This document shows, piece by piece, positions 17,640-40,381 of a DNA stretch of 43,031 nt (the stretch's first letter is position 1; each line of letters begins with the position of its first letter). The stretch covers positions 1-43,031 of IMG/VR virus record IMGVR_UViG_3300027763_000007; one strand, given 5' to 3'. Both the position numbers and the translations under genes were made by a program. Below the pieces are notes generated by a model, which did not search any database, had not been told where the DNA came from, and saw only the letters and a program-made list of their open reading frames with translations. This DNA comes from a virus.

Positions 17640-17677
17640 AATGAAAGCCTAATTTGTTCCTAATTAGGAGTTGGTTA

Positions 17678-35277: not shown

Positions 35278-35359
35278 CAGAAATGGATTAGGGTTCGCTG
35301 GGTCTCATCGGAGGCTTGTGAGGGCTGGCAGTACGTTTGTACTACTGAGAAGTTGGCAC

Positions 35360-36577: not shown

Positions 36578-36599
36578 GTTGGGCCCGAGTTGGGCCCGT
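36578..36599. repeat. Tandem 11-bp repeat GTTGGGCCCG(A/T)
   Basis: Two adjacent 11-base units differ only at the last base. Each contains the palindrome GGGCCC, so two symmetric sites lie one helical turn apart. The repeat sits about 150 bases upstream of the DUF7178-like start. Confidence 0.8.
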
Positions 36600-36611
36600 T
36601 TGTTGCAACTC

Positions 36612-36728
36612 TTAACCTTGAGCCAGGCTGAGGGCAGCCAGTACCTGGCAACGGGTCCAATCGTCCATTGCCTCAGTGGCTAGGCGATGCTTGAGCCAGG
36701 CAATGTGGGCGGCGCGGTGTTCGGTCAT
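36612..36728 (-). CDS. Possible 38-residue early ORF
   Basis: MTEHRAAHIAWLKHRLATEA continues MDDWTRCQVLAALSLAQG. The helical, charged composition with MTExxAA start resembles the other small early proteins here, and I have a faint memory of similar short cyanophage proteins. There is no clear ribosome site. Possible but unproven. Confidence 0.4.
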   Translation of the reverse strand: MTEHRAAHIAWLKHRLATEAMDDWTRCQVLAALSLAQG

Positions 36729-36791
36729 TTGTTTGTCGGTGGTTGACTAGCTCATTGTAGTCACAAGGTTGGCAGGGCTGGCAAGGACCTG

Positions 36792-36809
36792 TAACAAAGC
36801 TTAACAAAG
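36792..36809. repeat. Direct repeat TAACAAAG with 10-bp period
   Basis: TAACAAAG occurs at 36792-36799 and again at 36802-36809. The spacing is again about one helical turn. Confidence 0.65.
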
Positions 36810-36834
36810 GGCAAGGGTGAACAGATAAAAAGAG

Positions 36835-36856
36835 CATATGCAGATCATATGCAGAT
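36835..36856. repeat. Exact tandem 11-bp repeat CATATGCAGAT
   Basis: Two exact adjacent copies. On the minus strand they contain TATGAT and lie beside TATTAT, both -10-like, so an operator overlapping an early promoter is conceivable. No matching -35 box at good spacing was found. Confidence 0.85.
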
Positions 36857-36930
36857 AATACCTGCACAACTATCCCACCTAATCCCCACCGATTAACCGG
36901 GGTATGGTGCCTTATGGGTACCGATTGTCC

Positions 36931-36957
36931 GCGTACCTGTTCTCTCAGCAGGTACGC
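36931..36957. other. Hairpin with perfect 9-bp stem
   Basis: GCGTACCTG and CAGGTACGC enclose a nine-base loop. There is no T run on either side. It may be a protein-binding inverted repeat or an RNA structure in the early leader. Confidence 0.6.
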
Positions 36958-36994
36958 AAGGTCCGAGATCGCTTGCTGTGACTGGGTTGGCCAA

Positions 36995-37038
36995 CGGATT
37001 GGACACGGATTGGACAGGACCATGGCGCGGATTGGACA
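36995..37038. repeat. Three copies of 11-mer CGGATTGGACA
   Basis: Copies at 36995-37005 and 37006-37016 are exactly adjacent, and a third exact copy lies at 37028-37038 after eleven other bases, thus two units further on. All three are in phase with an 11-bp period, like iterons or an operator array. Confidence 0.88.
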
Positions 37039-37236
37039 GACACCGGGCGGGCGGGCTTGTTTTTTGGCCAGGGGGTACCCCGATGGGGGGATTGGGCCGC
37101 CGACGCACAGGCGTAACCACCTGAGAAATTTCTGTCATTTTTCACAGGACCCACCAGGATGCCCCTGGAAGCCCTCCTAACCGAAGGGACCCTCCAAGGA
37201 CACCCACCAACCCCCACACAGCCCTTCCAGGCCCTC

Positions 37237-37920
37237 TCAGCCCTCTCTCACGGCCACATAGTCATCCTGCTGCCACTGCAACTGCGGCCACATCGCGTAA
37301 GCAACGGAGGGCAGCTGCTCTTGCATGATGGTCCTGACTTGCTCAGCAATCACCCGATGTTCCTTCTGTGTCCCATTCCCACACCTGAGGTTCACATAGT
37401 GGAGCCAGCTACGGATGGTCCCATTCATGAACAGCTTAGTAGGCGTAGCCAACGGTAACACCTCTCTGGCACACTCCTTAGCCACACCCATGCTGAGTAG
37501 GTCTTGGTAGGTCTTCATGGCAACAGCGATGCTGCTGGCAGTAAGAGCATCACACCGACTCACCACATCATCACCAAGATCATCTGTGCTGTTCTGACGG
37601 TTCTTGGTGTCTTGTCGTCTCATCTCTGGTAGCTCTGGTCTTAGGGTTACCTCGGCATACCGCTGAGAGAACTCCTGAAAGGAGAAGCTACGGTGCCTAA
37701 GGATCTGTGGTGCTATGGCCCTAGTGGTGCTCACCTCCACCACCATGTTAGCCATCTCAAAAGGAGACCAGTGACCATTGGTGATGCAATACCGTAGCAG
37801 CCTAGGTGCTGTGTCGTGGTTCTCCTGGTTCTTAGGATTACTGACTCTGGCACAGTAGGCGATAAGTTCTTCTGCCTTTGGTGTGATGCTGATAAGCTTG
37901 GCTGAGTGTGTCTGAGACAT
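37237..37920 (-). CDS. thyX: Flavin-dependent thymidylate synthase ThyX
   Basis: This 227-residue enzyme makes dTMP from dUMP using FAD and methylene-tetrahydrofolate. The ThyX signature RHRSFSFQEFS (Arg75 to Ser85) followed by QRY is complete, and the C-terminal block AREVLPLATPTKLFMNGTIRSWLHYVNLRCGNGTQKEHR is typical. The ATG at 37920 (MSQTHSAKLISITP) fits the family start; an upstream GTG would add a hydrophobic shadow stretch. It stands alone behind the GIY-YIG gene, away from RNR and MazG. The 82-base leader contains ACCACAG/CTGTGGT arms. Confidence 0.95.
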   Translation of the reverse strand: MSQTHSAKLISITPKAEELIAYCARVSNPKNQENHDTAPRLLRYCITNGHWSPFEMANMVVEVSTTRAIAPQILRHRSFSFQEFSQRYAEVTLRPELPEMRRQDTKNRQNSTDDLGDDVVSRCDALTASSIAVAMKTYQDLLSMGVAKECAREVLPLATPTKLFMNGTIRSWLHYVNLRCGNGTQKEHRVIAEQVRTIMQEQLPSVAYAMWPQLQWQQDDYVAVREG

Positions 37921-38002
37921 CAGTGGGGTGATTGTGGTTGGAGTAAGAAACCACAGGAATACCAACACACAGACGTGATGGCATAGCTGTGGTATCTTTG
38001 GT

Positions 38003-38308
38003 TTACAACTGTGAAAACATTTTCAACGCTTCAGTAAGTAAATAGTCTTGGCGTTTGGTGAAGTTAACTTGACACCAAGCAAAGCCTCTTACAGCAGATA
38101 CACCATACATTTTCATGTATTTTAATGTTAGCTCTCTTTCAAGGTCATCGTCATGAACTTCCAACACAGCAACAGGCTTATGCAACTGAGTCCATTTAGC
38201 ACCACCACTATTAAAATGTTGAAGCAATCGTTTCATTAAATAAGCAGACTTACCAACGTAATACCTATCTTCTTTTAACTTGAGAACATAGGTAGCATAC
38301 TCAGACAT
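38003..38308 (-). CDS. Free-standing GIY-YIG endonuclease
   Basis: This 101-residue protein has the GIY-YIG layout: YATYVLKLKEDRYYVGKS (Tyr-Val-Leu and Tyr-Val-Gly variants at 7-9 and 17-19), KRLLQHFNSGGAKWTQLHKP with Arg27 and His31, and a later Glu (LERELT) as metal ligand. It is only the nuclease domain, with no separate DNA-binding part visible. It lies between terminase and ThyX, behind a non-coding stretch; it could be a homing-type selfish nuclease or a resolvase. The longer in-frame N-terminus does not look like protein. Confidence 0.85.
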   Translation of the reverse strand: MSEYATYVLKLKEDRYYVGKSAYLMKRLLQHFNSGGAKWTQLHKPVAVLEVHDDDLERELTLKYMKMYGVSAVRGFAWCQVNFTKRQDYLLTEALKMFSQL

Positions 38309-38395
38309 AGCGGTAATAGTAGTAATAGTAGTAAAGAAAAGCTGGGCAGTAGTTATCCACCAAGGCCTTGCCTTACAGCTGTAGCGTGTCATGAT

Positions 38396-38417
38396 ACGTT
38401 TTAGACACGTTTTAGAC
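38396..38417. repeat. Exact tandem 11-bp repeat ACGTTTTAGAC
   Basis: Two exact adjacent copies, just upstream (in minus direction) of the GIY-YIG reading frame. The minus strand continues into TATCAT, a weak -10-like hexamer. Confidence 0.85.
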
Positions 38418-38623: not shown

Positions 38624-40381
38624 CTAGGTCCAGGTGGGGATTGAGTTTTGGCTTTGTTGGATATCCCGGAAAGAGGTGCCTAAGACAAGGGCATCTGTGG
38701 CCTCCTGTGGGCTGTCCAGAAAGGCGGTGAGCATGACGTTCCAATCGTCCCGTTTGCGGGCGATCATGGCTTCCTTAGCACTGATGGCTAGGATGTCAAG
38801 GAAGTACTTCACACCAAGGGCCAGGGCATCGGCACGGTCATCATGGCGTACGGCTCCTTTCTCACGGCAGAGGCGGGTGAGCTGGTAGGCCAGCATCCGT
38901 GGTAGGCGATCCTCTGGTGCCATGTCTTGGTTACTCTCGTAGTCCCAGCTGATGAGTCGCTGGTCAATGATGAGTTTGTGTTGGTTCAAGACTGGCTCCA
39001 AGGTGTCAATGATCCGTGCTTCCTTCATGGTGTTGCTACGGACCTCCTCAAAGGACATACCAATCTTCATCTCCTGTGCGTGTCTCTTCAGGAGTTCCAC
39101 CACCATACCATCACCGAAGTTGCTTTCCACCAGGCAGGTGGTAGCACCGTAGTGTCTGGCACGGCGTAGGACTTCTCTGAGGGTGGTGTCTGAGTAGCCT
39201 TCTTGTGATGCAAAGATGTCACGGAGAAAGATGAAGCCGTTGATCTGGCTTAGGATGACTGCCACCGTTTCGTCCTTTCCTCGGCCTGATGGGTCCAGAG
39301 CCACGATGGTTTCCCCGTAAGGGACGAACTCAGACACGGCCTTGGGTCTGTGCCACTTGTCACCAGGCAGGGCAACAGCAGGCAGATCCAACACGGTCTC
39401 CTTGTCAGCACCCCAGATGATGTCACTAGGGCCTTTTGCTAGGTCCAAGGGTAGCACGGAGAAGTCACTCAGCTTCAGAGGAAACTTCAGGGCATCACTG
39501 AGGGTGGTGTCAAGTTGGAACTGAAGGGCAAAGTTGCTGCGAGACATACTGCCCTCGCGTTCCAGAAGGGTGATTTCGGAGAAGCGGCTGTCGGTAGGCT
39601 TCCAGGCTAGGTTGCTGATGCCCTCACGTCGGATGTCGGCAAGCAGATCCTTGGCCAGGGTGTCTTCATAGCCGACAAGGTTCTTTGGATACCTCGCAGG
39701 CCACACCATTGGGATGTACTTGCGTTCGTGAAGGGTACGATAAATGCTGAAGGTGTTCTGTGGTGTACCCAAGAACACGATACGACTGGTTGGTTTTGGT
39801 GTTAGGACGGATTCAAACTCCGTCACCAACTGAAGGAGCTTCTCTCGCATCATGTCGGTGGCGCTGTTGTTTGGTGTCTCAATGTCGTCGGCCACGATCA
39901 GGTCAGCACGAGATCCGGTAAGCATACCCGTGATACCAACAGACTTCACGGAGGCGCTTTGGGCTGGTTTGCAACCGGCCACGTCAAAGGACACCCGGCT
40001 CCATCTGGTGTCGTCATCCTGTGGTCGCATGTGTGCCAACCAATCAAACTCCAGGATGCACCGTTGGCAGAAGATGCTGAAGTCATCGGCTCGTTGCTTA
40101 CTGGCAGAGACCACAAGGATCTTCTTGTCCCGATCACAGAACAGCACCCACAGCACAAAGGCAGCCGTAATCCAAGACTTGCCCACACCACGGAAGGCCT
40201 GAAGCATAATGCGGCTGCCACCGTGTTGAAGGTAGCGGGCCATGGCAAGCTGTGCCCTGGTGGGTGGTGGTAGGGCCAGGCTTTTCCAACAAAGGCGGAG
40301 AAAGAGAGAAAAGTCGTTCTTGAGTTTCTGCTCGTAATCCACCATAGGGGGCTGTGAGGCGCTGTGAGGCGTTTTGGTCAT
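38624..40381 (-). CDS. terL: Large terminase subunit (T7 gp19-like)
   Basis: This 585-residue packaging motor has Walker A FRGVGKSW (63-70), Walker B DLIVADDIE (160-168) and coupling motif VFLGTPQN (202-209). The C-terminal RNase H-type nuclease has Asp363 (VALDPSGRGKDET), Glu419 (CLVESNFGDG) and RHDDRADA (Asp514, Asp515, Asp518). It matches T7 gp19 in length (586). It follows the basic-protein group by 76 bases with a weak hairpin in the gap. No clear ribosome site precedes the ATG. Confidence 0.97.
   Translation of the reverse strand: MTKTPHSASQPPMVDYEQKLKNDFSLFLRLCWKSLALPPPTRAQLAMARYLQHGGSRIMLQAFRGVGKSWITAAFVLWVLFCDRDKKILVVSASKQRADDFSIFCQRCILEFDWLAHMRPQDDDTRWSRVSFDVAGCKPAQSASVKSVGITGMLTGSRADLIVADDIETPNNSATDMMREKLLQLVTEFESVLTPKPTSRIVFLGTPQNTFSIYRTLHERKYIPMVWPARYPKNLVGYEDTLAKDLLADIRREGISNLAWKPTDSRFSEITLLEREGSMSRSNFALQFQLDTTLSDALKFPLKLSDFSVLPLDLAKGPSDIIWGADKETVLDLPAVALPGDKWHRPKAVSEFVPYGETIVALDPSGRGKDETVAVILSQINGFIFLRDIFASQEGYSDTTLREVLRRARHYGATTCLVESNFGDGMVVELLKRHAQEMKIGMSFEEVRSNTMKEARIIDTLEPVLNQHKLIIDQRLISWDYESNQDMAPEDRLPRMLAYQLTRLCREKGAVRHDDRADALALGVKYFLDILAISAKEAMIARKRDDWNVMLTAFLDSPQEATDALVLGTSFRDIQQSQNSIPTWT

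Follow-up and report, generated by a model that had tools for sequence, protein, structure and literature searches.

A conserved TGTCCAA direct pair in the predicted terminal repeat of a T7-like cyanopodovirus, set among unrelated 11-bp repeats

The tandem 11-mers found around the likely genome end of this T7-like cyanopodovirus are several separate things and not one phenomenon. One of them, the CGGATTGGACA tandem, is the local form of a direct TGTCCAA pair that recurs in related phages inside the predicted terminal repeat, and the 11-mers lacking TGTCCAA are unrelated local features or coincidences. From the position, conservation and spacing of this pair, and from the geometry of the end beside it, we infer both binding and function: the pair is probably the lineage-specific counterpart, by analogy, of the CCTAAAG repeats of T7, that is, a putative protein-binding site that serves the processing of concatemers or the completion of the terminal repeat.

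The window, as the whole analysed stretch of 43,031 nucleotides will be called (IMG/VR record IMGVR_UViG_3300027763_000007), is a circularly assembled genome with its genes on the minus strand, in the order terL, GIY-YIG ORF, thyX, terminal region, DUF7178 early gene and, further on, RNA polymerase. Its closest relatives in IMG/VR are 3300027969_000183 (L002) and 3300032268_000272 (L098), with which a three-genome alignment was made; together with 26 more distant loci, these three form a working set of 29 homologous regions, which share ancestry, so that counts across them are not independent events. The genes and reading frames around the terminal region are the following:

38624..40381, minus strand, TerL (large terminase), PHROG 38
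38003 to about 38310, GIY-YIG ORF between terL and thyX
37237..37968, minus strand, thyX (FAD-dependent thymidylate synthase), PHROG 85, last gene before the terminal region
36612..36728, minus strand, conserved 38-aa ORF MTEHRAAHIAWLKHRLATEAMDDWTRCQVLAALSLAQG, near-identical in L002
35808..36437, minus strand, first sizeable early gene past the terminal region, PHROG 3842, DUF7178

The stretch carrying the repeats had been taken to be non-coding, which does not hold for it as a whole, as it contains thyX, the GIY-YIG ORF and the conserved 38-aa ORF (absent from L098 and with no Pfam match). The search of the region against Rfam gave no credible match. The C-terminal half of the GIY-YIG ORF and the sequence upstream of it toward terL are near-identical to L002, whereas thyX and terL diverge more, and the ORF is absent from L098; this pattern of similarity suggests recent exchange or homing.

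The ends of the assembled sequences were discarded as physical ends. The termini of the window share an identical overlap of 127 bp located at the small-terminase gene, and the record of S-B28 has an end overlap of equal length; thus, the 127 bp look like an assembly overlap and were rejected both as a real terminal repeat and as the place of the genome end. The contig ends of L002 map to positions ~36533 and ~35330 of the window and do not bracket the predicted end. It is instead rather likely, judging from sequence features, that the true linear ends lie in the interval between thyX and the early genes; the direct terminal repeat (DTR) would have its left end at ~37114, reading down the minus strand. 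This interval follows terL and the last genes and precedes the early genes, as is the case for T7-type ends, and the proposal that a genome end lies near the repeats is in this way borne out as a prediction. Two features define it:

37115..37141, minus strand, end box AAAATGACAGAAATTTCTCAGGTGGTT, whose 3' edge is the predicted cut and terminal-repeat boundary
37078..37090, minus strand, C-tract palindrome CCCCCCATCGGGG, at +24 from the predicted end

The end box has 27 nt (consensus ATTTTGACANAAATTTCTGAAGTCCTT) and is present in 29/29 homologous regions, a count obtained with a box defined from the same alignments that were used for scoring, from which only its agreement with recorded ends is exempt. 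This agreement is exact: in Syn5, P-SSP7 and S-TIP37, whose repeats measure 237, 206 and 150 bp, respectively, the homologous box runs up to the first base of the repeat, which in all three starts 27 nt from the box start. The ends of P-SSP7 and its 206-bp repeat were determined by sequencing (Sabehi and Lindell 2012, PMC3350473). The C-tract (C5-6) is found at +24/25 in 29/29 regions and at +23 to +26 in isolate cyanopodoviruses, a comparison that leaves out S-TIP28 and 9515-10a, in which the compared stretch does not include the end region. In T7 it stands at +25 (CCCCCATAGGGGG) and in T3 at about +24 to +26. Thus, the box and C-tract of the window reproduce the geometry of the recorded ends of Syn5, P-SSP7 and S-TIP37, with a C-tract distance common to T7 and T3, and it is from this geometry that the left end of its terminal repeat is predicted. 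Positions 37150-37236, lying between the stop codon of thyX and the end box, form a long stem-loop (-47.1 kcal/mol, z -3.5), and most relatives have a different inverted repeat in this position; the inverted repeat there is likely a terminator.

Inside the predicted terminal repeat lies the element to which the CGGATTGGACA tandem belongs:

36984..37038, minus strand, degenerate array of 11-bp TGTCCAATCCG units (the CGGATTGGACA tandem of the preliminary description)
36931..36957, minus strand, inverted repeat GCGTACCTG-N9-CAGGTACGC, an imperfect form of which is conserved downstream of the pair in alignments of relatives

On the coding strand CGGATTGGACA reads TGTCCAATCCG, which is the local form of the direct pair TGTCCAA...TGTCCAA. 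The units of the window are, in order, TGTCCAATCCG, CGCCATGGTCC, TGTCCAATCCG, TGTCCAATCCG and TTGGCCAACCC, and its TGTCCAA words fall at +76, +98 and +109, all of them within the predicted terminal repeat. When all 6-mers directly repeated at a spacing of 8-14 were counted without bias, TGTCCA came first, in 23/29 regions, the next unrelated ones reaching 7; with GTCCA as the core, a direct pair is present in 25/29. In most relatives the pair starts +75 to +79 inside the predicted end, and a third, inverted word of the CTGKMCAG type, CTGTCCAG or CTGGACAG, in most cases lies ~14 bp beyond it. The stretch separating the C-tract from the pair is hypervariable and aligns poorly, and the persistence of the pair beside it points to selection or maintenance. 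Even the distant marine Prochlorococcus phage P-GSP1 carries TGTCCAATCCGTGTCCA at +65.

When IMG/VR was scanned for the pair by itself, independently of gene homology, 122 sites were obtained, 16 of which lie 54-88 nt after an end box and C-tract, several in contigs that gene homology had missed; the other 106 have no end box, and their number is, by our estimate, about that expected by chance. Among 85,000 bacterial and archaeal genomes (species), the 11-bp-spaced form had 26 matches, about the chance level and none of them cyanobacterial; therefore the pair looks phage-specific, and a host-encoded site was rejected. It is missing in 4/29 homologous regions and in most isolate genomes, which indicates that T7-like ends in general can do without it.

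It had been suggested that a protein binding adjacent sites about one helical turn apart could explain the 11-mers. This fits one array, that of CGGATTGGACA with its conserved pair. The first-pair spacing is 10 bp in one region, 11 in 12, 12 in 12 and 13 in one, mostly 11-12 bp, while the last two units of L098 are at 10 bp and those of L002 measure 11, 10, 11 and 12 bp; this variation from 10 to 13 leaves strict helical phasing unsupported. The CGGATTGGACA tandem is thus the form taken in this phage by a conserved element of the predicted terminal repeat, made of two (in the window, three) direct TGTCCAA words 11-12 bp apart, often followed by CTGKMCAG. In the mechanism we propose, a DNA-binding factor would read neighbouring copies that lie on about the same side of the helix, and would act when concatemers are processed, the second terminal repeat is completed or packaging starts. 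The nearest known arrangement being that of T7, the pair is proposed to play the part of the T7 short repeats. The small terminase was considered as the reader and is not supported, since the presence of the motif does not track TerS similarity: the TerS of P-GSP1, which has the pair, is closest to that of S-TIP37 (81%), which lacks it, and the TerS of the window is closest to that of Syn5 (67%), which also lacks it.

The main rival of a role in end processing is transcriptional: the pair would act in early transcription, as an operator or activator site read by a host or phage regulator, and would lie inside the terminal repeat by chance. The pair is indeed upstream of early genes, an inverted word placed after two direct words at a distance of one turn is a common operator layout, and regulatory-looking boxes of the cyanobacterial LexA type are enriched nearby. 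However, the offset kept in most regions (+75 to +79) is measured from the packaging end, while thyX and the first sizeable early gene are separated by a distance that ranges from ~0.8 to 2.1 kb, and the exact 11-bp-spaced form occurs in no cyanobacterial genome searched, its matches elsewhere being at about chance level. We thus regard a transcriptional role as rather unlikely.

The LexA-type boxes deserve a comment of their own. With the cyanobacterial LexA-operator consensus RGTACNNNDGTWCB (PMC3091678), 16 sites were found in 10/29 terminal regions, against 0.5 expected by shuffling. They are located in the window at 35329-35342 (a copy, AGTACGTTTGTACT, between early ORFs), and in the terminal or early intergenic regions of L103, L104, L114, L118, L125, L127, L129, L130, L131 and L132. 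These sites may link the early transcription of the phage to the LexA of its host.

All the repeats named in the preliminary description exist, including (A)CGGATTGGACA twice at 36994-37016 with a third in-phase copy at 37028-37038, GTTGGGCCCG(A/T) at 36578-36599 and CCTAATT at 17648 and 17659. The remaining ones, together with the true nature of GTTGGGCCCG(A/T), are:

38396..38417, minus strand, GTCTAAAACGT twice (first described as ACGTTTTAGAC, confirmed as an exact tandem), exact in L002 and degenerate in L098
36835..36856, minus strand, ATCTGCATATG twice (first described as CATATGCAGAT, confirmed as an exact tandem), private to the window
36792..36809, minus strand, CTTTGTTAAGCTTTGTTA, a pair spaced 10 bp (first described as TAACAAAG twice with a 10-bp period, also confirmed), conserved only in the three closest genomes
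36581..36597, minus strand, hairpin GGGCCC-N5-GGGCCC with palindromic arms (first described as a GTTGGGCCCG tandem)

The claim that such tandems are very rare by chance was likewise sustained. The 1,116 nt of non-coding DNA contain three exact tandems of period 9-20, whereas 1,488 of 1,500 dinucleotide shuffles had no tandem and 12 had one (mean 0.008), and the remaining 40.8 kb of the window hold a single one; the clustering is therefore real.

These three tandems of differing sequence within ~1.1 kb, far above chance, are what gave appeal to a mutational process acting near the genome end that duplicates precisely one helical turn (11 bp). Nevertheless, an 11-bp indel was found at none of the arrays when the window was aligned with L002 and L098, so no gain or loss of units is seen. 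At the CATATGCAGAT site the two relatives have a different sequence of about equal length, and the L002 stretch around ACGTTTTAGAC is nearly identical overall to the window. Neither is there an excess of period 11: exact tandems of periods 7, 9 and 8 number 25, 19 and 5 in 31 homologous regions, the set used for this count, and those of period 11 only six, all of which are the units already described, an inherited copy of them, or TGTCCAA pairs (the two in the distant relatives L134 and L101 both contain TGTCCAA). With a looser criterion, a repeat distance of 11 is no commoner than 8 or 15 once TGTCCA is removed, and the isolate cyanopodoviruses show no period-11 bias. A one-turn duplication process is thus largely refuted, and we consider it very improbable.

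All the 11-mers could be put down to ordinary short tandem duplications in non-coding DNA under weak constraint, with the common period as a coincidence. Exact tandems of period at least 8 reach 0.57/kb in terminal intergenic DNA against 0.064/kb in the rest of the loci, about nine-fold, and with many periods, and CATATGCAGAT is private to the window. Such duplications give a good account of CATATGCAGAT and perhaps of ACGTTTTAGAC. But they cannot explain the same TGTCCAA pair recurring at the same place across distant phages, for which they are refuted, nor the conserved GGGCCC hairpin; as an explanation of all the 11-mers they are improbable. Other exact tandems, GGGTATG twice and AAGCGAGCG twice, are shared in the gap between terL and thyX of relatives (L113, L121, L073, L118, L134, L103, L115; L110, L104, L117, L109), and are possibly other regulatory repeats.

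The GGGCCC element is of a different kind. An inverted repeat with palindromic arms also reads as a tandem, and the GTTGGGCCCG tandem is therefore this hairpin, whose arms are kept in the window, L002 and L098 around a variable 5-nt loop. The whole window and the L002 genome each have just two GGGCCC sites, both of them in the hairpin, and the hexamer seems to be avoided elsewhere in both.

A more general picture can be tentatively advanced, although we lean against it at present: T7-like phages from enterobacteria to cyanobacteria would share one terminus grammar (end box, cut, ~25 nt, C-tract palindrome), complemented by lineage-specific short-word repeats (CCTAAAG, TGTCCAA, possibly ATTGAGAATC) read by a putative factor that completes the second repeat. 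To our knowledge, the completion of the second terminal repeat in T7 is still not fully understood, and identifying the short repeats makes their role in that process addressable. Assemblers circularise T7-like genomes, so that their real ends are lost. The box-to-end geometry gives the recorded end of three genomes to the base, and, if fixed, would allow ends to be called in silico in many metagenomic cyanopodoviruses; up to now, genome ends must come from experiment (Sabehi and Lindell, PMC3350473). No earlier description of the end box or of the TGTCCAA pair was found in the literature searched, whose scope did not take in the T7 classics or the Syn5 genome paper.

Among known systems, P-SSP7 and Syn5 share with the window the location after the last genes, the end box with the repeat starting from its 3' edge and the C-tract at +24 to +26, and differ in that both lack the TGTCCAA pair. 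In a place similar to that of the pair, the terminal repeat of Syn5 (L087 46020-46055) contains two copies of ATTGAGAATC spaced by 21 bp. With its direct repeats at about one helical turn, the TGTCCAA element also recalls the iteron-type binding arrays of replication and packaging, from which it departs, as a putative binding site, in having only 2-3 copies and in lying at a packaging end. The closest likeness is to the CCTAAAG repeats of T7 and T3. In the T7 record, the terminal repeat has CCTAAAG copies at +16, +40 and +59, to either side of the C-tract palindrome, and arrays of the word with 12-13 bp spacing follow just beyond the repeat; T3 is similar. As there, the element is a 7-bp direct word repeated inside the terminal repeat near a C-tract palindrome at +25, with a spacing of about one turn plus 1-2 bp. 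Unlike them, it uses TGTCCAA in place of a CCTAAAG-like word, in 2-3 copies rather than many on both sides of the terminal repeat, with a spacing of 11-12 bp, an inverted CTGKMCAG companion and no long arrays seen outside the repeat. Thus, we do not class the TGTCCAA element as a homologous member of the T7 short repeats, and propose that it works like them.
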